DNA from: Pseudooceanicola nanhaiensis DSM 18065
Lineage (GTDB): Bacteria; Pseudomonadota; Alphaproteobacteria; Rhodobacterales; Rhodobacteraceae
NCBI RefSeq assembly: GCF_000688295.1
Contig: NZ_JHZF01000013.1
Coordinates: 62,001 to 126,000, forward strand
Length of the DNA: 64,000 nt
Reading direction: 5' to 3'
In this document: positions 50,878-60,645 of the stretch, one piece after another
Numbering within the stretch: the first letter of the stretch is position 1
How the letters are laid out: every line of letters begins with the position of its first letter
The notes under the pieces: model-generated
The model's database searches: none
Seen by the model: the letters and a program-made list of their open reading frames with translations, nothing else
What the model was told of the DNA's origin: nothing
Position numbers and translations under genes: made by a program

Positions 50878-51828
50878 AGGCGACCTCCACAACCCACGGA
50901 AATACACTACGCAGTCAAGGCGCCGAAGCAATTGAAAGTGACCCCATCTTGCCCCCGAAAATAACCGGCTAGGCGAACTCCATCTCCGCTCGTCCCCGCG
51001 GTGATCCTGAACGCGCTCGCCGGCACAAGGCACACGGAACAAGTGTGACCTGCGCCTTTGGGCAGCCGGTCATTGCTCGGTCTCCCGCAACGGTAGCTCT
51101 CACTCCGCTCGCAAGATGACATCGGCACATGTCCATCCTGCCCGAAGGACGCACGTTTGCGAGGCCGCAGTATGGCATCTGCACCAGATTGAGGCGATCC
51201 GGGGCCCCTGAAGCGCCAGCGGTGCCGGACGGTTTTTCGTAACGGGTTTCGACGGGGGATCGGGATGCGAAACCACCCACACAATCCGGAACTTTACGCT
51301 GGCATCCCGAACAACGCGCCTACTGTGTCTTCCGTCTATGCTGCCATTCATATCACTCGGAACGCGCGTTTGGGTGTTGGCGGGGTTCGGCAGCATAGTG
51401 TTGGAATATAAGGACCGAACCGGAACGAGCGATGTTCCCAAACCGAGACTGAGGCCCATCCTGAGCCCAGCTTCGGCCGGGCGGCGCGTCTATAAGGTTC
51501 GGCCGGTTCTTGCAAACCCCTTTGATAACACGGAAAAAGCCGTGCCCGTCAAATCGCTGTCACTGGTTCGGCAGGGTGATGATGGCGGGCCGAAGCCGAC
51601 GAAACGGAGAACTACACCTACGCTATAGCCCTCTAAATTGCGGCACGAGCGAATGACTAGCTGCGTGCGAGTCAAACTCCGAGGGTGGGGACTGCCTAGC
51701 CGCGCGAGCTGTCCACCCAATCCAGAGTCGATTTGCATGCAAATCGCGCGGCACTTTAAAGATTATGATGTATCGTTGGCGCAACGACTGTAGTGACCCA
51801 GTGATGCCACGGAATGGGGGGCGATAAC
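50878..51828. other. 951-bp intergenic region between secretion and protease operons
   Basis: This is a divergent gap between the minus-strand secretion operon and the plus-strand protease operon, visibly less GC-rich than flanking genes. Open frames of 80-125 codons occur on both strands but none has a recognisable domain or ribosome site. Several GGTTCGG/CCGAACC-type short motifs recur between 51410 and 51580. Promoters for both operons should lie here. The one clear element is an 18-bp palindrome at 51729-51746. Confidence 0.4.
51729..51746. promoter_or_regulatory. Perfect 18-bp palindrome upstream of the protease operon
   Basis: CGATTTGCATGCAAATCG is its own reverse complement over all 18 bases and lies 82 bp before the protease start at 51829. 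Uninterrupted palindromes of this size are typical operators for dimeric HTH regulators. A second short inverted repeat (CGTTG gcg CAACG) follows near 51773-51787, and a T/A-rich stretch between the two could hold the -10 element. Confidence 0.55.
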
Positions 51829-52803
51829 ATGGAATATTCGGATGCCTATCTGCGCGAATACCTGCCGCGCGAGAACCCGCCGATGGAGTTGGTTCCGGGC
51901 GATGTCATCGACGAAGTCGAGCGCTGGGGTGATTTCATCGGCGAGGATCGCGAACTGATCGCACGGTCCACCTTCTGGACCTATGCAATCTTCTCTGAAC
52001 TGGGCCTAGGTCGCTATCGATCCGAACGTTTGCATGACCGCTTCTGGCGGGTCAGGCCGTGGTTCACGCTGGCTGGAACAGACTTCAATATGAAGCGGGT
52101 CACATTCGGTCTTTTCGACAAGGACCGAGAAAAGGCGGGGATCGGGTTCGCCATCGACGTTCCCCAGTGGGACGGGCCGGAATTTGCAATCATTGACAGG
52201 CTAAGCTTTCCGCTCCTCGGGGGTGTAACCTTCCCTTTCGCGATCCGACAGAACGAGATCGAGCATCATGTGGCGCATCCCAGCGGGGCGACCAGCGCTT
52301 GTTGGGCACAGTGCAGGACGACATCGCTCTGGGGCGTGCTCACCGCAGGCCATGCGGTCAATGGCAACCGACCCGGCCGGGCCGTGTCTATGGCGTCGGG
52401 CGACACCGCCTCGCTCGGCCGCTCCTACTTCCAGCCGGTTGATGCCGCCTTCGTGCTGACGCCAGCACCGAGCCACAAGCCGACGCAGCTTCCTTTCATG
52501 AGCTTTGCCTCAATGGGACTACCGGTCATCATCGACTGTCAGTCTGGTTCGGTCTCACGCACCGTCGTCGATGTGCAGAACAATTGCGGAGTCCTCAACA
52601 CGCGCGAGGTCGGCGTCACGCTCTGCCTCGACCAACCTGTCTCCAAAGGCGATTCCGGGGCGCTTATTCGCGTCGCAAATGGCGACGCCGTTGGCCTCTA
52701 TCGCGGTTCGATGAAGGCGCCGAGCGCGCCGAATGGTTTTCGCGGCCTCGCCCAGAATTTCGAGCAGGCGATCCTCGCCCTCGATGTCTTTCCCTATCTG
52801 TAG
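51829..52803 (+). CDS. Cytoplasmic trypsin-like serine protease
   Basis: This 324-residue protein without a signal peptide has a chymotrypsin-fold catalytic triad: His175 in GVLTAGHAVNG, Asp205 in QPVDAAFVL and Ser276 in VSKGDSGALI. The first 140 residues are a separate domain of unknown type. The ATG at 51829 follows a GGGGGG run suited to ribosome binding; an in-frame ATG 15 bases upstream is possible. It is the first gene of an operon with a Trypco1-like small protein (11 bp downstream) and a GNAT-like protein. Cytoplasmic trypsin-like effectors with Trypco partners are known from NTP-dependent conflict systems. This version shows no NTPase neighbour. Confidence 0.85.
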   Translation: MEYSDAYLREYLPRENPPMELVPGDVIDEVERWGDFIGEDRELIARSTFWTYAIFSELGLGRYRSERLHDRFWRVRPWFTLAGTDFNMKRVTFGLFDKDREKAGIGFAIDVPQWDGPEFAIIDRLSFPLLGGVTFPFAIRQNEIEHHVAHPSGATSACWAQCRTTSLWGVLTAGHAVNGNRPGRAVSMASGDTASLGRSYFQPVDAAFVLTPAPSHKPTQLPFMSFASMGLPVIIDCQSGSVSRTVVDVQNNCGVLNTREVGVTLCLDQPVSKGDSGALIRVANGDAVGLYRGSMKAPSAPNGFRGLAQNFEQAILALDVFPYL

Positions 52804-52814
52804 AGGAGCATCCC

Positions 52815-53204
52815 ATGACCGAGCCTGCGCAGGACGAATTCGAGATCTCGATCTTCGTGCCCGAGGAGGGTACGGCCGTGCCGTTGCCGCCCGATCCATC
52901 GGTCGAGCATCATTCGATGCGCGACTGGGTGCCGGGTCTTGGCCGGGTCGCCAAGGTCCGTGCAGGGCAGGTCCAGGAGCAATGGACCCGCACTGTCGAT
53001 ACGCTTATGAAATTGAGTTCAACCACCGCCGCCCGCTCGAAGGAATGGTCGATCGAGGAAATCGAGGTCGGCCTGACCCTGAGCGCCAAGGGCGAGCTGT
53101 TATTCATCGCTGAGGCGGGCGCTGAGGCGAGCATCAAGTTCAAGCTGACCCGCAAGGGCGAGTCCGCGCCCCAGGCGCCTACGCTCTTGCCGTCAGGAAA
53201 TTGA
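52815..53204 (+). CDS. Trypsin-co-occurring domain (Trypco1-like) protein
   Basis: This 129-residue protein has GAGGAG before its ATG. The C-terminal half, EWSIEEIEVGLTLSAKGELL followed by FIAEAGAEASIKFKLTRK, has the pattern I associate with Trypco1 (CU044_2847 family): 'E.e.GL.lsa.g...ia.ag.ea.f.v.l'. That domain is typically encoded next to trypsin-like proteases, exactly as here. The N-terminal half is a short beta-strand region (FEISIFVPEEGTAVPL) plus helix. It probably binds or regulates the protease encoded 11 bp upstream. Family recognition is from memory of the motif and not from a search. Confidence 0.7.
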   Translation: MTEPAQDEFEISIFVPEEGTAVPLPPDPSVEHHSMRDWVPGLGRVAKVRAGQVQEQWTRTVDTLMKLSSTTAARSKEWSIEEIEVGLTLSAKGELLFIAEAGAEASIKFKLTRKGESAPQAPTLLPSGN

Positions 53205-53209
53205 CGCCG

Positions 53210-53707
53210 ATGGCAGCAATGACCGATCCGGGCAATGCGCTGGCGCTCTATCAGCAGGCGTTTGCGGCCGGCGTGATTCCGCTGCAACCCTGCCGGCTCG
53301 ACCCGAGCCTGTTGATGGCGGTCGATCACCCCAACGGCAAGAAGCGCTTCTCCTATATGCGGTTCACGGGGACGAAGATGACTGCTCTGGTCATGTTCGC
53401 GCAGGACGGGATGGAGGAGGGCGGCCCGATCTTTAACATCGGTTATGCCGTCGATGATTGCGCGCGCGGGCGCGGTCTTGCCCAATCGACACTGGTCGCA
53501 GCCCTTGCTGAACTCGAGCATGGACTGAAAGGTGCGAATGTGCCTGTGCTTAATGTTGAGGCGGTGATCAACATTGATCACATCGTCTCGCAGCGCGTCG
53601 CCGCAACGATCTTCCCCGATGCGCCCAAGCCCATAATCGACAGCGGATCGGGCCTGCCAGCGCTCCATTATTACCGATCGATTCTGCTCAACGCGCCGCG
53701 CGCGTGA
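53210..53707 (+). CDS. GNAT-like acetyltransferase in the protease operon
   Basis: This 165-residue protein has the core layout of the GNAT fold: strand FNIGYAVDDCARGRGLAQST carrying the Q/RxxGxA/G-type acetyl-CoA loop (ARGRGLA), then a helix (LVAALAELEHG) and LNVEAVINIDHIVSQRVAA, where Asn-Ile-Asp/His follows the usual 'v...N..a..l' motif. The ATG at 53210 is 11 bp after AGGA; a TTG at 53201 overlapping the Trypco1 stop is the alternative. It is third in the operon. Acetyltransferases are known as toxins or modifiers in conflict systems, but the role here is inferred only from position. Confidence 0.6.
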   Translation: MAAMTDPGNALALYQQAFAAGVIPLQPCRLDPSLLMAVDHPNGKKRFSYMRFTGTKMTALVMFAQDGMEEGGPIFNIGYAVDDCARGRGLAQSTLVAALAELEHGLKGANVPVLNVEAVINIDHIVSQRVAATIFPDAPKPIIDSGSGLPALHYYRSILLNAPRA

Positions 53708-54319
53708 AGAAGGCCCTCAGTTGCACGCTAAACCCGAAGGCTGAGGTGCGGCGATAGAGAACCATGAGGCACAGCGAGCAAGACATCTTCGCCAGTCGCA
53801 GCAGCGCTGCTATCCTAAAAATGCTGGGACGACAACTCATGACATATCCGGACCTTTACGCCTAGGCCGGCGAGAGTTGATATCTGGTCAAAAGCATCCG
53901 CACTACTGACCCGGACATGCTGGTATCGGACAATAGCGTGGAATCGGCGGTTCGTTATACGGCATGGTGGCGTGCCGTAATCGGCGGCAATATCGCGCCA
54001 TAGAGAGCAATCGGCGGCGTTTGGCGGAGGGGATGGGCCTGATATCCAACCTTCTTTTGTGGATGCAGCTCGGTTTGCAAGGAATTTCTGATCGTCTGGG
54101 CATGTGATCGAGTGCGAACTTTTGTCAGGCCTGTTCGTGCGGCCGACTGGCGCCGCTGGCCGGGATGGTGATGCGCGGAGCGGGGCCAAATCTCCAAGAG
54201 CGAGCTCGAGGCTCGGAGAAGGTTTCTGGTTTGCCCGACCCGGATCATATCGATCATTTGCCCATACTGATCATGCCTTCCTCACAACTCGGTGGCCCGA
54301 GTGCCCCTTCGGTGCCCGA
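53708..54319. other. Non-coding tail of an IS110-family remnant
   Basis: This 612-bp stretch has no supported gene. It begins after the GNAT-like gene and ends at the stop codon of the IS110-type transposase fragment (minus strand), so at least the part nearest 54319 should be the 3' non-coding side of that element. In the IS1111 branch of the family this side carries the bridge-RNA locus. The left element boundary is not visible to me; a change in sequence character near 53880-53960 is only a guess. Confidence 0.4.
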
Positions 54320-54406
54320 TCAGGCGCCGATCAGCACCGGGCCACGATAGCTTTCACCGCGCGTCAGCATCGCCCAGATGCCGCGCGCCATCTTGTTCGC
54401 CAGGGC
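54320..54406 (-). pseudogene. IS110-family transposase, C-terminal fragment
   Basis: Reading the minus strand from 54406 to the stop at 54320-54322 gives ALANKMARGIWAMLTRGESY and then RGPVLIGA-stop. 'ALANK.AR..WA.L.....Y' is the conserved extreme C-terminus of IS110/IS1111 (DEDD) transposases. Everything upstream of this (the catalytic domains) is missing: the fragment stops abruptly at the position where plus-strand recombinase coding begins (GLDMEFNSLDAQ from 54403). The element is therefore a dead end-piece, retained after a deletion or recombination event. Confidence 0.75.
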
Positions 54407-55653
54407 TCGACATGGAGTTCAACAGCCTCGATGCGCAGCGGGAGGCTTGCGAGGCCTACATTGCCAGCCAGCGCGCCGAGGGGTGGGCCTGCCTGCGCGA
54501 ACGCTACGATGACGGCGGCGTCTCGGGCGGCACGCTGGACCGCCCCGCGCTGAAGCAGCTGATTGCCGATGTCGAGGACGGGCTGATCGACGTTGTCGTG
54601 GTCTACAAGATCGACCGCCTCAGCCGCGCGCTGATGGACTTCTCGAAGCTCGTCGAGATCTTCGACCGCCACGGAGTGACCTTCGTGTCCGTCACCCAGT
54701 CCTTCAACACCACCACGTCGATGGGCCGCCTGACGCTGAACATCCTGCTCAGCTTCGCCCAGTTCGAGCGCGAGGTGATCGGCGAACGGATCCGCGACAA
54801 GGTCGCCGCCTCGAAGAAGAAGGGCATGTGGATGGGCGGCTACGTGCCGCTCGGCTACGATGTGGTCGACCGCAAGCTGATCGTGAACGAGGCCGAGGCC
54901 GCGCAGGTCCGGACCATGTTCGAGCTCTTCGCGCGGTCCGATTCCACCGCCGCCGTGATCCGGGAACTGAACGCCCGCGGCATCCGGTCCAAGCGCGGCC
55001 GGCCCATCGACCGCGGGGCGCTCTACAAGCTTCTGCACAACCGCATCTACCGCGGCGAGATCACCCACAAGGGCGAGACCTATCCCGGCATGCACGAGCC
55101 CATCGTCGATGCAGAGCTGTGGGACGCCGCCCACGCTGTGCTGGCCGGCAACCGGAACCAGCGCGCCGGGCGCACCCGGAGCACCGAACCGGCGCTGCTG
55201 CGCGGGCTGATCTTCACCGAAACCGGCGCCGCGATGACCCCGCACCACACGAAGAAGGGGAACAGGCGGTACTGCTACTACGTCTCGATGGACGTGATCC
55301 AGAAGCGGCCGACGGCCGAGTTGCGCGGGCCCCAGCGGCTCCCTGCGGCCATGGTGGAGGAAGCGGTCATCGGCGAGACCCGGCGGCTGCTGCGTACGCC
55401 GGAGATCATTGCGCGGACCGCCCGCGCGCTGAAGAAGGAACGGCCTGACCTCGACGAGGGCACCGTCACCGCGGCGCTGACGCAGTTCGACGATCTTTGG
55501 AAGGCGCTGATCCCAGCCGAGCAGGCTCGTATCGTCCAGCTGCTCGTGGCGCGCGTGACAGTGGGCGAGGACGGGTTGGACATCGATCTTCGCCATGACG
55601 GGCTCGGCGCACTGGCGAGCCTGATGGCGCCCACGCGGGTGGACGCTGCCTGA
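54403..55653 (+). pseudogene. Large serine recombinase lacking its catalytic N-terminus
   Basis: About 415 residues of a resolvase/invertase-type large serine recombinase. Present are EFNSLDAQREACEAYI, YDDGGVSGGTLDRPALKQLI, VVVYKIDRLSRALMDFSKLV, FAQFEREVIGERIRDKVAAS, then the recombinase and zinc-ribbon regions and C-terminal helices. Normal relatives begin with about 15 residues containing YTRVSS/YTRKSS, where the Ser is the nucleophile. Here that segment is replaced by IS110-derived sequence and no in-frame serine in that context exists. The frame is otherwise intact to a coupled HTH gene. It may be translated from ATG 54412 as a non-catalytic DNA-binding protein, or be decaying. Confidence 0.85.
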
Positions 55654-56036
55654 TGCCCGCGAACGAGACGATCCGCGTCCACATCCCGCTCACGGTCCGC
55701 AAGCGCGGCGGTCGCCCGCGCATCCTGCCGCCGCGGGATATCGAGACTTCGGACCCGCCGCCGGGGCAGGATCCGCGCGTGCTGCGCGCCATCGGCCGGG
55801 CATGGGCGTGGCGGCAGCGGATGGAGCGCGGCGAGGTCACCACCATCGCCGATCTCGCTGCCGAGGAAGGCCTCTCCGACCGCTATGTCAGCCGCCTGCT
55901 GCGCCTCGCATGGCTGTCGCCGGAGGTTCTCGAGCGACTGGTCGTGCGCCGCGAGCCCTGCGCAATTAGCCTCTACGACCTGTGCTTCGTGGCCTCTCTG
56001 CCGTGGGACGAGCAGCAGGCGCAGGTTTTCGACTGA
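55653..56036 (+). CDS. Small HTH protein coupled to the recombinase
   Basis: This 127-residue protein's ATG shares one base with the recombinase stop. A basic N-terminus (VRKRGGRPRILPP) is followed by a helix-turn-helix (EVTTIADLAAEEGLSDRYVS RLLRLAWLSP, about residues 68-97) resembling the ParB/KorB-like HTH. Genes like this commonly follow serine recombinases in alphaproteobacterial integrative elements and probably assist site recognition or regulation. It has retained an intact frame even though the recombinase has lost its nucleophile. Confidence 0.7.
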   Translation: MPANETIRVHIPLTVRKRGGRPRILPPRDIETSDPPPGQDPRVLRAIGRAWAWRQRMERGEVTTIADLAAEEGLSDRYVSRLLRLAWLSPEVLERLVVRREPCAISLYDLCFVASLPWDEQQAQVFD

Positions 56037-56101
56037 GCCACTCCCAAAAGACCATTCAAAGGATCCAGATTCGAGGCTACCGTTGGCAAAAGTCACCTTA
56101 C

Positions 56102-57661
56102 TTGAGGTTTGTTTTGCTTGCCGAAAATGCACTGGGGCCTGGCTTTCCCGAATGGACGGAACTAGGGCAGGAAACGGGTCTTGATCCACTTGGGATGCAG
56201 CGACCAATCGAGGTCGTCTATCAATCCCTTTTGCCGGGCATCAGCACCATCACACTTCGGCTTCGCTACTATTCGTTCTTTCCCTGGCTTCTGGACTCGT
56301 ATGCGCGACGCAATGGAAGCACCGATATGCAGGAGTTTCGGTTCTTTCAGCGAAAGGCGGAAGCTCTCTATGCACTACTCTGCGCCCATCGTGACTATGA
56401 GCTCGGCATCGCCGGGATACTTTGGGCCAGTCGGGAACTGCAGAGTCTGGCCGAAGAAACCGATCCGAATGCCATAGTTGATTTCGCGTCATCCGCAGAC
56501 CCGGATTCCCGTCAGAACCGCTACCTTGAGAACAAGGGAGGTGCCTTCGGCGGCATCTACGCCAGCCAGCTTCGTGAGATGGGCCTCGTGCGTGTCGATG
56601 ACCCCAACATACCCATTCCGTATTGTACAAATGCTGCGATGGACCTGGCAGACGCCATGTCTGATCAGCTTGGTGATCTCGCAGAGGTCTTTCTCAGTGC
56701 TGTTGAGAAGGGCCAGGTAACGGTTGAAACGCTCGACCGGCTTGCGCTGATGAAACCGTCGAGAGTGCCCGCCGACAGCGTTGAGCAAGAGGCGCTGGCA
56801 GCGGTCTTGATGGGACGACAGCAGAACGCGCGCGAGCCAGATGTCATGAGGCGCCAAACGCTCATTGAACTGCTGCGGTTAGCCGGCGAGCTACAAAGAA
56901 TTCCGCGGGCCGATGACGCGAAGTGGGCGTGGTTCAACGAGGGAAATTCACAAGAGACCGACCGTATCGATGTTCTCGGGCTTTGGTCTCTGTATCAAGC
57001 CAGCGACCTTTGCCGCCTGGCATATGAAGGCTTTCTGTCGGCAGCGCTTCAGTCGCTCGAGGCCGCCCCGTACCGCAGGAAAACACTTCGCGAGATTGTC
57101 GCCGACCTGATCGAGCCAACGGATTTGGAAAATACGACAACGCTCGCGGAATATCTTCGGAATCAGACGGCAGACGAAGAACCGGAAACCTTGGCGAAGC
57201 AGGCTGCTTCCGAACTTCTCGAGGCTGAAAAGACTGGCGACGTCGACGGTGAGGTCAGAGCGTCGATTCGTCTGCTTTCGGCGCTTTGGCGAAAGAGCTC
57301 GGATTATTCGAGTTCCGTTCTCAGACGGCTCCGCTCGGCTGATCACTTCCAGTCGTATGCTACCGAGATACGCTTTCTTGAGCAGCGATTGTCGACGCCG
57401 GCAAGAACAGCATTCGAGGAGATGATTTCCTCCCGCGTGATCAAGCGCCATCTCTGGGTGGCCTCGCGCAAGTTTCGCAATCAGAAGGCCTACACATTCC
57501 TCATGGAACCGGACGACGGCCAGTTGCGCTTCCGCAGCCGGTTTTCCGTCTCTCCCAGTAGTCCGCGCATCGACCAGGCAGTTCAGTTTCTGCACGACGC
57601 AAAATTGTTGGACGACAAAGGCCCAACATCCCTTGGAATTGCTGAAATCGAGCGTCAATGA
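56102..57661 (+). CDS. Putative defence protein with DUF6361-like motif (partner of PLD protein)
   Basis: This protein is about 519 residues if started at the TTG at 56102; the frame stays open back to the previous gene, and no good ribosome site is evident, so the start is uncertain. Near the N-terminus LDPLGMQRPIEVVYQSLLPG then ISTITLRLRYYSFFPWLLDS resembles the 'G...i...f...lfPG.STi..R.RYf.fvPw' motif that I associate with DUF6361 proteins. The rest is mainly helical with no recognised catalytic motif (no Walker A, HNH or methylase). Codon use is much less GC-biased than core genes. Its stop overlaps the PLD gene's ATG by four bases, so the two products are made together. Confidence 0.65.
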   Translation: MRFVLLAENALGPGFPEWTELGQETGLDPLGMQRPIEVVYQSLLPGISTITLRLRYYSFFPWLLDSYARRNGSTDMQEFRFFQRKAEALYALLCAHRDYELGIAGILWASRELQSLAEETDPNAIVDFASSADPDSRQNRYLENKGGAFGGIYASQLREMGLVRVDDPNIPIPYCTNAAMDLADAMSDQLGDLAEVFLSAVEKGQVTVETLDRLALMKPSRVPADSVEQEALAAVLMGRQQNAREPDVMRRQTLIELLRLAGELQRIPRADDAKWAWFNEGNSQETDRIDVLGLWSLYQASDLCRLAYEGFLSAALQSLEAAPYRRKTLREIVADLIEPTDLENTTTLAEYLRNQTADEEPETLAKQAASELLEAEKTGDVDGEVRASIRLLSALWRKSSDYSSSVLRRLRSADHFQSYATEIRFLEQRLSTPARTAFEEMISSRVIKRHLWVASRKFRNQKAYTFLMEPDDGQLRFRSRFSVSPSSPRIDQAVQFLHDAKLLDDKGPTSLGIAEIERQ

Positions 57662-59991
57662 AGTATTACGAAGCTTTCTCGGGAAGTGGATACGACTCTG
57701 CTTTCATGACGACCTACGCCTTCTCGGCACAGGCATTTGAAGATGTGCCGTTTCCGAGGCTGCGGGGTGGCGGATGCCGGAACATCACCGTTCTGGCGGA
57801 CCGCGGAATGCTCAACATGAGCTTTGATGAGTTCGGACCGCCGCGCTATGCCGGCACACTCTACCATGTGGTGAAGGCCACGATGCCTGGCGCCTTCCAC
57901 CCCAAGATCGCTCTTCTGGCAGGTGCCGCGAAGGGCCGATTGATGATCGGTTCCGCAAACCTGACTGGATTGGGACTTGGCGGAAATCGAGAATTGGTAG
58001 CCGATCTCGCCTACACCACAGACAACCCTGAATTCACCTCACTTTTCGGACAGGCAATGCGGTACATAGCGCGCCACGTGCCCAACGACGATCCGTGGTT
58101 TTCCTCGGCACTTGACCGAGCCTTGAGGCACGCCTCCTGGCTGCGAACGGCCATGGCCGACGAGTCCGTGACAGAACGGGACGACATCCGTCTAATAATC
58201 GACCGTTCCGAGGGCACCATTCTTGATCAGATCGCGGCCAGTATCGGTACTGACCCGATCCGCCGCCTCATTGTTCTTTCGCCTTATTGGGACGAACGAC
58301 TGGAAGGATTAAGACGGCTACGATCGGTCTTGGGGATGCCGCCAACGGACATCCTTATCCAACCCGCAGCAGGTTTGTTTCCGGCTGAAAGCCTCGGCAG
58401 GCATGACAATCTGCGGCTGTTCAATTCTGGGTCTGAGCGTTCGTCGCGCTTCATTCACGCCAAGCTCTTTGTGGCCCTTGGTGAAGAATCGGATCATTTG
58501 ATCTCAGGCAGTATGAATTGCTCGGCCCCTGCATTGCTTGGTTCTGCCGATGTCTCGGGCAATGCCGAGGCCGGGATCTACAAACGCGTTCCAAGCGGCA
58601 CGGCGCTGGCCGCGCTCAACCTGGAGGGATACGAAGAAAACCCCGTCAGCCTGTCAGATTTGCCTGCACGCGAAGAGCGGGAGCGATCCTCATCTGCTGA
58701 AGCATTGCCTGCCGATGCAGGCAACTTCGAACTGCGTGGTGGAGAATTGTTCTGGCGCCCCCCGAACGATGGTGCGTTGGATGCCTCCGAGATCCGGTTG
58801 TTTGACCGCGACTACGAGGAACTGGCGCAAGTACTTCAAATCGAAGCTGGCGGAACCAACAGGTGGGCCATTGATCCTGACCTCCGACGCCCGAGGGTCG
58901 CACGCCTGGTTGGCCATGCCGGAACGTGGTCTGCACCAGCCTCAATCGTTGATCTTGAGATACTGTCGTCCTCCACGCTTCCTGTCCGAAGGGGGCGGAA
59001 GCGAACGCTCGTCGATAGCCTGGCCGAGCTCGACCAGGAAGATCTGACAATTCTAGAAGCCCTCAACGAACTGGAGATGCTCGAGGAAACCGAGCACAGC
59101 AAGAACCCGGGCACCGTTTCATCCCGCAGCCAGACACCGACGACGCAGAGGGACACAGAGCAGCTCCATCAGGTGCTGCCCTACGAGGTGTTCGTGGCTG
59201 CACGCAATCGATCACGAGCAGAGAAGGACGGACGGACTGCGTGGTCCCGTGCGCGCGAGGATGACCCGGCCGGGATGATCAATGCCTGCCTGAATCGCCT
59301 GGTCGGCCTTGTATCTGAAGATCTGTCAGAAGACGAAGAGCGCGCCATGCTGGAAGACGCCGCGACCGACCTGCGAACTACCGAACCGGCCAAGGCTGAG
59401 GACACAGATGCCGAAGGACTGAATTCTGCAGACAATTCAATCAGTCCAGCTCGGCGAGCTCACGTCACGGCAACAGCAAAGAAATATGTCGACGCTGTGA
59501 AGGCCTTTGAGAAGCGAACGACGGCGCTGAAGGGCAGCCCGATAACAACGGCTGAACTGGTTCGGTTGCGGGCCCTCCTGCAAATTGTCCTGGCTGGGGC
59601 GATGCCCGTTGCCGGACAGGCGAAAGAACATCAGGTGCTTCCATTGGAAACGAAGGATAGCACTGAGTGGCCGCGTCTGATTGGGCGATTGCTGCGCCAG
59701 CATTTTGGGACGATCCGCGCGCTACAGTCCCTTCAGGTCGAAGACGATGAGAGCGAGCACACGCGGGTTCTGGATTACCTTGCAACGGCGAAATTCGCAG
59801 CACAGATGGCTGTTCGAGGGGCTCAGTCGAGTCGGTCGCTTGCTCCAATTCAGAAAGCCCTCGGCGCGCTTTCTGCAGACTTGGAAACTCAGATCAAGGC
59901 GATCGCCGCCTCCGACGAAGCTGACCTCGCCCGGCTGCAAGAACTGGATGGCAAACTGGCCTCGCGGTTTGGACCAGCGCTCGGGATATGA
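57658..59991 (+). CDS. PLD-fold (HxK) phosphodiesterase, putative defence nuclease
   Basis: This 777-residue soluble protein carries two PLD-type half-sites: motif 1 is AFHPKIALL (His81, Lys83) with LMIGSANLTGLGLGGN, and motif 2 is RFIHAKLFVAL (His267, Lys269) with LISGSMNCSAPALLGS. The Asp of HxKxxxxD is not at its usual place in motif 1, while S/N residues follow as in PLD nucleases such as BfiI/Nuc relatives. Residues about 330-450 form a beta domain and 480-777 a long helical region without Walker motifs. There is no signal peptide. It is coupled to the upstream DUF6361-like gene in a mobile region ending at tRNA-Ser, so a nucleic-acid-targeting defence role is a reasonable inference. Confidence 0.75.
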   Translation: MKYYEAFSGSGYDSAFMTTYAFSAQAFEDVPFPRLRGGGCRNITVLADRGMLNMSFDEFGPPRYAGTLYHVVKATMPGAFHPKIALLAGAAKGRLMIGSANLTGLGLGGNRELVADLAYTTDNPEFTSLFGQAMRYIARHVPNDDPWFSSALDRALRHASWLRTAMADESVTERDDIRLIIDRSEGTILDQIAASIGTDPIRRLIVLSPYWDERLEGLRRLRSVLGMPPTDILIQPAAGLFPAESLGRHDNLRLFNSGSERSSRFIHAKLFVALGEESDHLISGSMNCSAPALLGSADVSGNAEAGIYKRVPSGTALAALNLEGYEENPVSLSDLPAREERERSSSAEALPADAGNFELRGGELFWRPPNDGALDASEIRLFDRDYEELAQVLQIEAGGTNRWAIDPDLRRPRVARLVGHAGTWSAPASIVDLEILSSSTLPVRRGRKRTLVDSLAELDQEDLTILEALNELEMLEETEHSKNPGTVSSRSQTPTTQRDTEQLHQVLPYEVFVAARNRSRAEKDGRTAWSRAREDDPAGMINACLNRLVGLVSEDLSEDEERAMLEDAATDLRTTEPAKAEDTDAEGLNSADNSISPARRAHVTATAKKYVDAVKAFEKRTTALKGSPITTAELVRLRALLQIVLAGAMPVAGQAKEHQVLPLETKDSTEWPRLIGRLLRQHFGTIRALQSLQVEDDESEHTRVLDYLATAKFAAQMAVRGAQSSRSLAPIQKALGALSADLETQIKAIAASDEADLARLQELDGKLASRFGPALGI

Positions 59992-60170
59992 AACTGACTT
60001 CGCTCCCCGCATCTGCCGTCATCATCACGTTGGTTTACGACCAACTGCGCCTCTCGCCTGTTGCGGCTCTGTTCTCCTCGAAGGCGATGGAAACAGGGGG
60101 CGAAGTTTTGGCGGAGTTGAAACTCAGGTCATTGGAAAAGCGTGAAAAAATCCGACCGAACCGAATTTAG
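59988..60170 (+). CDS. Possible small or truncated third gene of the PLD operon
   Basis: A 60-residue frame whose ATG overlaps the PLD gene's stop (ATGA), the usual signature of translational coupling. It begins MKLTSLPASAVIITLVYDQL, with a mildly hydrophobic stretch, and ends with KREKIRPNRI before an amber stop. It could be a genuine small protein or the 5' remnant of a larger gene cut at the tRNA-proximal island end. No family recognised. The sequence from 60171 to 60325 holds nothing else that I can identify. Confidence 0.3.
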   Translation: MKLTSLPASAVIITLVYDQLRLSPVAALFSSKAMETGGEVLAELKLRSLEKREKIRPNRI

Positions 60171-60325
60171 CGAGGTTCGCCTGAACAGAGACGGAGGGCC
60201 ATTCAGAGCCCGAAACAGGCTTGGCGCGCAGTCTCCGAGGTTCGCATGGGGGAAGCAAAGCCCTTTGAAAACACGACTATTTCAGCGCGGCGATGGGCGT
60301 CTGTCCGTGTTCGCAACTGGGATAG

Positions 60326-60415
60326 TGGCGGAGGAGGTGGGATTCGAACCCACGGTACGCTTGCACGCACGACGGTTTTCAAGACCGCTGCATTCGACCA
60401 CTCTGCCACTCCTCC
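60326..60415 (-). tRNA. tRNA-Ser (anticodon UGA)
   Basis: On the minus strand the sequence starts GGAGGAGTGGCAGAGTGG at 60415 and ends with CTCCTCC, discriminator G and an encoded CCA at 60326-60328. The anticodon stem-loop reads GCGGTCTTGAAAACCGTC with anticodon TGA. A long variable arm (CGTGCGTGCAAGCGTACG-like) and GGGTTCGAATCCC T-loop make it a class II serine tRNA of 90 nt. Its 3' end faces the PLD-containing mobile region, a common integration arrangement. Confidence 0.97.
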
Positions 60416-60645
60416 GGGTCCGGACCCGATTAGACGGGCCGGATCGATTCGGCAAACCCCCGCCGGCGGTGCAAAGACGTCACGCCGGGCGGGGCCCGGG
60501 GTGGCGGGCCGCGGGCAGGCTTCCCAAGTTCGCGGGAAAAGGCTACACTCGCTGCCAAACAACGCCCGAAAAGGGCGATCCTATCGGCAGCGCCGGGGCA
60601 ACCGGCATCGCGCGGCGCAGACCGCGACAGGCAAGAGGCAAGGGC

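Follow-up and report, generated by a model that had tools for sequence, protein, structure and literature searches.

Several described prokaryotic systems rely on nucleases of the phospholipase D (PLD) superfamily. The restriction enzyme BfiI builds its active site from two subunits, with the residues H105-K107-N125-E136, a spacing of 2/18/11 (PMC4081073). DISARM, Dpd, and BRIGADE have YprA-type helicases (PMC12458937; for DISARM also PMC9142583). In pAgo-AgaP (APAP), the PLD protein, whose HxK and GSxN motifs lie ~ 50 residues apart, is toxic by itself, an effect that its partner suppresses; the system targets plasmids and a virus, and its immunity is reported to come without noticeable abortive infection (PMC11442185). 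PADLOC holds models of Zac (ZacA, PDLC03828; ZacB, PDLC03829; ZacC, PDLC03830) and of a candidate system, PDC-M27 (A, B, and C). Here we describe a pair of genes, A and B, in a 64,000-nucleotide stretch (the window) of contig NZ_JHZF01000013.1 from Pseudooceanicola nanhaiensis DSM 18065. We judge it somewhat more probable than an even chance that the pair is a horizontally moving two-protein PLD nuclease defense module, a cousin of Zac that lacks ZacC, in which A would control or aim B. This reading builds on a gene pair that is conserved and mobile, on the fold predicted for B with its intact active site, on the defense-rich neighborhood and purifying selection, and on the lack of a clear ZacC homologue next to the pair. 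A further claim, put forward tentatively and judged a little less likely than even, is that A and B form a complete, undescribed immune system of bacteria and archaea that would distinguish foreign DNA from the cell's own without a methylase, helicase, ATPase, guide, or second messenger, as a minimal relative of Zac and PDC-M27 spread partly by small tRNA-Ser integrative elements.

A coupled and conserved gene pair

Proteins A and B were examined in alignments of 54 sequences each, from which broken, cut, or duplicate loci had been excluded beforehand; the invariance counts for both proteins therefore describe intact copies only. The features of the pair are listed below, with loci in other genomes given by L numbers.

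56114..57661, + strand: gene A, mainly helical partner of ~ 515 amino acids, probable distant relative of DUF6361/ZacA
57658..59991, + strand: gene B, PLD-superfamily protein of 777 amino acids
57658..57661, + strand: ATGA overlap of the A stop and the B start, read from the sequence; of the 70 loci where A sequence is present, plasmid loci L002-L006 included, 57 show a 4-nt overlap
56104..56107, + strand: GAGG, Shine-Dalgarno-like, 6 nt ahead of the TTG at 56114; identical layout in L007
57898..57993, + strand: B half-site 1 (H81, K83, N101, E112), invariant in 54/54 rows, spacing 2/18/11 throughout
58456..58569, + strand: B half-site 2 (H267, K269, N287, E304), invariant in 54/54 rows, spacing 2/18/16-18
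58723..58953, + strand: beta-rich region of B, residues 356-432, from the secondary structure of the AlphaFold2 model
59299..59457, + strand: acidic linker of B, residues 548-600, partly disordered in the model
59458..59988, + strand: C-terminal helical region of B, residues 601-777, from the AlphaFold2 model

The true start of gene A is most probably the TTG at 56114, giving ~ 515 amino acids, because of the spacing from GAGG, the same GAGG-N6-TTG arrangement in the L007 copy (92% identical), and the N-termini of relatives in the alignment, which agree with this start. The TTG at 56102 was rejected, as that codon overlaps GAGG 56104-56107. An earlier first-pass annotation of this DNA had begun gene A at 56102 and needs correcting there, while the rest of its description of the pair stands: the two genes overlap by ATGA (B starting at 57658, A ending at 57661), the second encodes a 777-residue protein with two HxK/GSxN half-sites (HPK/GSAN and HAK/GSMN), the partner motif LLPGISTITLRLRYYSFFPW is found in gene A, and both genes are lower in GC than the core, at 0.565 for A and 0.586 for B versus 0.683 for the window outside 51293-60415. 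Compared with L007, dN/dS is 0.125 for A and 0.18 for B, indicating purifying selection.

In one scan of genome contigs, an A-like sequence was found directly 5' of B in 65 of 66 loci, and because of this we regard A and B as a conserved two-gene unit, more than chance, as the first-pass annotation had supposed in treating them as one cassette. L072 is the only locus without an A-like sequence before B; the 65 include L054, where A is broken, L041, where just the end of A is present at a contig edge, and L026 and L027, where B is broken or cut. Also among the 65, a Pseudovibrio locus (L053 370-3327) has the end of A fused in frame to B, apparently by deletion of the A/B junction including the N-terminus of B. 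Among plasmids, 25 records have a B homologue, 16 of which were opened, and A adjoins B in 16/16 loci read; two plasmids from actinobacteria give weak A-matches, at E=3e-5 and 1e-4. B comes before A in plasmids of Sphingopyxis sp. 113P3 (L153 5983-9833) and Rhizobium gallicum (L159 5761-10017); the genes are still adjacent, so the pairing survives rearrangement. A adjoins B in six of seven viral-contig loci, and no B match was found in phage records.

Hosts span three bacterial phyla and an archaeon, with Halorussus (the archaeon), Bacteroidota, and Actinomycetota among those named. Five of 60 relatives match, two of them strongly (own genome included). Of the 292 genomes of the order, 10 match strongly (E <1e-90, own included) and 12 others give weaker, partial matches only. 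The tree of B (69 rows) mixes families and orders, and close copies are found in different families; the three ZacB rows split from the rest with support of 100/96, although long branches (ZacB and several plasmid rows) leave the deep joins unsure. In a metagenome-assembled genome labeled Opitutia (Verrucomicrobiota; L008), a pair with 90% identity is found on a contig of 5 kb; this may reflect misbinning and not an inter-phylum transfer. This distribution bears on whether the pair is a housekeeping unit or a mobile-element hitchhiker with no defense role. The mobile islands and plasmids carrying it do bear other cargo, as a hitchhiker would allow, but the patchy occurrence (strong matches in 10/292 genomes of the order), the defense-rich neighbors, and purifying selection (dN/dS 0.12-0.18) argue against this explanation. 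We give this explanation a very slim chance.

The PLD protein and its helical partner

Protein B carries HPK at residues 81-83 and GSAN at 98-101, followed by HAK at 267-269 and GSMN at 284-287, and all eight catalytic positions are unchanged in 54/54 aligned sequences. Structure comparison of the AlphaFold2 model points to a PLD fold, with BfiI and SauUSI among the Foldseek matches; B has the two HxK...GSxN half-sites in a PLD fold that mark the superfamily. The linker at residues 548-600 has a net charge of -10 (-5 or lower in 53/54 rows), and the predicted local distance difference test score (pLDDT) is <50 at residues 570-594.

The model of protein A is mainly helical, with a mean pLDDT of 88.8, and its fold gave no match above noise in structure searches, including no clear match in the Protein Data Bank (PDB). 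Many of the invariant columns of A in the 54-row alignment lie in the segment GLDPLGMQ...LLPGISTITLRLRYYSFFPW. DUF6361 (PF19888) scored 15.6 bits against a cutoff of 25, at residues 28-70 of P0001, and membership of A in that family was rejected on this score. Judged from sequence, A is a divergent cousin of DUF6361/ZacA, with ~ 82 residues in common, and no member by score. The "DUF6361-like partner" of the first-pass annotation thus keeps its likeness, a distant one by way of ZacA, and loses its membership.

On the preferred reading, A and B would probably be made together in a fixed ratio. B would act as a PLD phosphodiesterase made of one chain, in which both HxK...N...E half-sites contribute to a composite active site, and would cut DNA metal-free through a covalent phosphohistidine, the chemistry of BfiI and Nuc. 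We infer that the helical A most likely binds B in a complex and holds it idle, and that A would sense foreign DNA (phage or plasmid) as it enters and then release or aim B in defense of the cell. The conserved acidic linker of B may add self-inhibition as a DNA mimic.

The coupled genes and their fixed pairing are also what a toxin-antitoxin or abortive infection system would have, with B as a toxic nuclease degrading any DNA, A as its antitoxin, and infection freeing B so that the cell dies; this explanation overlaps with the defense module. It has a precedent in pAgo-AgaP, in which a partner suppresses PLD toxicity, yet the immunity reported for that system came without noticeable abortive infection (both PMC11442185). 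At ~ 515 amino acids A is large for an antitoxin, and it stays with B in either order. We consider the toxin-antitoxin explanation unlikely. The same is broadly true of Type IV-like restriction, in which A and/or the C-terminal part of B would recognize modified or unusual foreign DNA and B would cut it, with no self-methylation needed: no recognition domain was identified, and the pair has no ATPase, unlike SauUSI, which leaves this explanation with a low probability.

Neighboring genes and the tRNA-Ser island

The neighborhoods of the pair, rich in defense and mobility genes, were surveyed in 71 loci, 52 of which have at least 4 kb on both flanks. No third gene recurs beyond the commonest other neighbor clusters, which occur in 7/71 loci. 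After 11 of the 71 loci were left out as redundant or broken, 60 loci gave 218 neighboring open reading frames (ORFs; at least 150 amino acids, at most two per side), from which 111 were randomly drawn within a residue limit; the control was 111 of 142 ORFs from 12 stretches of eight genomes. Length-based ORF calling may give spurious ORFs in GC-rich DNA, in neighbors and control alike. PADLOC models matching at 1e-15 numbered 186 among the neighbor ORFs versus four among the control ORFs (mad3, mad2, SduA, and PDC-S07), a contrast that counts redundant models (many of them GajB) rather than proteins and gives a direction, not a number of systems. Each family tally lists no more than the 25 most frequent families, and the Pfam tally covered the neighbors only. 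In Myroides, a Type I operon has the pair between its hsdS and hsdR genes; in Polaromonas, it follows OmpA/EH-signature/SNF2 genes, which we take to be Zorya II. Elsewhere, genes for MmeI-type IIG, GajB, SoFic, HmaC, HipA, and transposases are beside or near the pair.

A cluster of ~ 1,130-aa proteins was observed in 7/71 loci (L034 4967-8383, L061-L064, L066 2174-5623, and L067). Its L034 representative has RNase_H_2, AAA_11/12, and PD-(D/E)XK matches, and in L034, L061-L064, and L066 the protein is encoded immediately next to the pair, with both orientations seen. This RNase H/AAA protein is a possible occasional partner of the pair.

Several points weigh against a self-contained nuclease defense module. 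The redundancy of the models behind the 186-to-4 contrast is one, and the control, taken from other places in the eight genomes, itself has one strong SduA match. UvrD-type proteins were found in five and ResIII in three of the 111 neighbor ORFs, the AAA/RNase H protein adjoins several pairs, and Type I restriction subunits surround one; co-operation with nearby helicases or restriction subunits is possible in those loci. The DUF6361 score of A falls below the curated cutoff, and, given a modeled fold without a clear match, the role of A is a guess. For B, the curated-family sequence match is weak (PLDc_2 of Pfam matches at its cutoff), Foldseek ranks F13 and polyphosphate kinase above SauUSI and BfiI, and with VIA, F13, phospholipase D, and PssA score at least as high as nucleases. 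PLD folds are also those of lipases, phosphatidylserine synthases, and polyphosphate kinase.

Two further explanations were weighed. In the first, the pair is an accessory that lends its nuclease in trans to Type I restriction, Zorya, helicases, or host motors. Its positions between hsdS and hsdR in Myroides, after the Zorya-like genes in Polaromonas, and after the AAA/RNase H-type protein in L034 and L066 would suit such a role, as would the helicase-type partner ZacC of the cousin system Zac. However, the partners vary by locus, the commonest clusters reaching 7/71, and none such is among the seven island ORFs scanned, so we regard an accessory role as doubtful. In the second, B would be a PLD enzyme that acts on lipids or nucleotides and is not a DNA nuclease, working through membrane damage or metabolism, and F13, phospholipase D, and PssA do reach Z scores equal to or above those of Tdp1 or PLD3/4. 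Against this, the K-to-N spacing is 18 in both halves in 54/54 rows, which matches BfiI; the pattern HxK(x)4D(x)6GSxN would instead give 15 (PMC11442185). The hydropathy of A peaks at 1.02, with no membrane segment, and that of B slightly exceeds 1.6 in one window, near residue 634. The matches of B to ZacB, to PDC-M27B, and weakly to DrmC are to defense candidates. We consider a lipid or nucleotide enzyme highly unlikely.

The mobility that forms part of the defense-module reading is seen at this locus in an island of roughly 8.7 kb, from ~ 51.59 to 60.325 kb, whose right end lies at the 3' end of a tRNA-Ser gene. Its features outside the pair are as follows.

51293..51588, no strand given: segment like the right end of the island, 77% identical to L026 12360-12667
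51814..52803, + strand: trypsin-like protease candidate, cargo, 329 amino acids; Peptidase_S29 at 18.7 bits, short of its cutoff (25)
52584..53204, + strand: Pepco/Trypco1-domain protein, cargo; PF24393 E=1e-12, PF19493 24.9 bits with a cutoff of 24.6
53201..53707, + strand: GNAT-like protein, cargo, a weak match; Acetyltransf_3 at 18.6 bits, short of its cutoff (25.4)
54292..55653, + strand: serine recombinase remnant; Pfam Resolvase (profile 14-145) 7e-37, Recombinase 1e-17
55653..56036, + strand: small helix-turn-helix (HTH) partner of the recombinase (phrog_14161), E=2.3e-24, ending 77 nt before A
60105..60325, no strand given: right-hand end of the element, immediately next to the 3' end of tRNA-Ser; similar sequence in the pair-bearing L007, L026, and L117
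60326..60415, - strand: tRNA-Ser (TGA) by ARAGORN, probable insertion site

From the pair to the tRNA, without the recombinase, the window (56011-60416) is 92% identical to L007 of Defluviimonas, with identity falling to 67% within tRNA-Ser and to 31% in the 100 nt past it. The L007 copy sits at a tRNA-Ser with another anticodon (GCT), after an IS240-type transposase gene. Since two species have near-identical DNA at distinct tRNA-Ser genes, we read it as probable site-specific insertion. Across the 58 loci scanned, a tRNA-Ser lies 206-990 nt 3' of B in six, always on the minus strand, and a tRNA-Met lies 160 nt 3' of B in two further loci. The N-terminal catalytic part of the recombinase is absent from its frame and present in a relative in L117. 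Recombinase and HTH genes together precede A/B in L117 (5747-7608), and homologues of both are upstream in L026 and L049. The serine recombinase and phrog_14161 HTH combination (window 54292-56036; L117) was observed to be associated with insertion at tRNA-Ser genes. The first-pass annotation was right to place the pair between recombinase debris (54292-55653, degraded) and tRNA-Ser (60326-60415, minus strand), and its statement that no helicase or methylase lies beside the pair agrees with the seven island ORFs scanned with Pfam, small ORFs being outside the scan.

The tRNA-Ser region was matched in 22 genomes (own included), and five siblings were read. These are syntenic to the right of tRNA-Ser only, and a clean empty site was not obtained from them; to its left they have no match to window 36000-60325 and none to the right-end segment, and for this reason the left boundary of the island is only approximate. 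No perfect direct repeat was detected at the two ends of the island. The segment at 51293..51588 is 70% identical to the right-end segment over 123 nt and abuts a possible degenerate tRNA-Ser 3' end, and its counterpart, L026 12360-12667, abuts tRNA-Ser in another pair-bearing genome; it may mark the terminus of an earlier element that had inserted in tandem. Among the cargo, the Pepco/Trypco1-domain protein probably has its true start near 52815. With the protease candidate before it, this gene makes up a second conflict-type pair (51814-53204), unrelated to A/B.

Comparison with Zac and other PLD systems

Among PADLOC models, ZacA matches A at E=1.4e-8 over 84 residues, while B is matched by ZacB (2.5e-13) and by PDC-M27B (4e-8, residues 78-330). 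With hhalign, B against ZacB reached 97.8%, over 280 PLD-domain columns and not full length, and A against ZacA reached 77.9% over 82 columns, the ZacA side consisting of three rows. Like Zac, the pair joins an adjacent A-type gene to a B-type PLD gene; A has the FPGTSTIQTRLRY...PW-type segment, and B, a ZacB-type PLD protein by its match, has both HxK half-sites. The differences are the lesser length of the Zac models (396 and 586 positions), an alignment of A limited to ~ 82 residues, and a third gene in the three Zac loci read. In 299 genomes of the phylum, ZacA was matched at 1e-10 in three, each with an adjacent ZacB and a neighboring ZacC (Helicase_C in 3/3 and DEAD in 2/3 by Pfam). One Zac locus (L113 1-8130) has DrmA and DrmB adjoining the Zac genes, a mixed DISARM-Zac locus. 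The DUF6361 model matched 2/200 genomes, both at genes also matched by ZacA, and A shares the N-terminal motif region of DUF6361 at a score below its cutoff.

ZacC itself had no match in the own genome, in a search that was positive in 6/14 controls. A model built from the three ZacC proteins found no clear ZacC in the 71 pair neighborhoods (1059 ORFs; at least 4 kb on both flanks in 52 of the 71), the sole weak match being an SNF2-type gene 5 kb away in L056; the plasmid loci gave one weak match, an SNF2-related gene in L158. Because no clear ZacC homologue accompanies it, the pair is, by sequence comparison, a relative of Zac without ZacC and not a Zac member. As for the candidate PDC-M27, B matches PDC-M27B, and the PDC-M27C models match ZacC, of which no clear homologue stands beside the pair. 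PDC-M27A matched 0/1 in the own genome, in a search that matched nowhere.

The suggestion of the first-pass annotation that the module may be undescribed holds in part. Homologues (ZacA, ZacB, and PDC-M27B) are already PADLOC models, while no paper on Zac or on the pair was found in the literature, searched largely outside subscription journals. The word zac was not found in the PADLOC paper (PMC8565338), nor DUF6361 or ZacA in the available part of a BREX paper (PMC12839542). If the pair protects cells on its own, it would amount to an immune system of very small size, a nuclease controlled by protein family A, and would show the role of the core shared by Zac and PDC-M27 and what the helicase adds. 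The invariant motif of A would be a target for mutation, and how a nuclease free of methylase and motor spares its own DNA would become testable.

With the PLD restriction nucleases the pair shares the PLD fold of B, and half-site 1 of B has the 2/18/11 spacing of BfiI in 54/54 rows. B differs from BfiI, NgoAVII, and SauUSI in holding both half-sites in one chain, and the scan of seven island ORFs showed neither a cognate methyltransferase, as in BfiI-type systems, nor a DEAD ATPase. DISARM, Dpd, and BRIGADE likewise place a PLD nuclease in a defense setting, and DrmC matches B at 16.1 bits; no YprA-type helicase, and none of the DISARM genes (DrmA helicase, DrmB, and methylase), was found by Pfam in those ORFs. 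The closest tested analogue, in spirit, is pAgo-AgaP, which also has two genes, for a PLD protein and a partner; there the partner is an Argonaute, whereas A has no Argonaute match.

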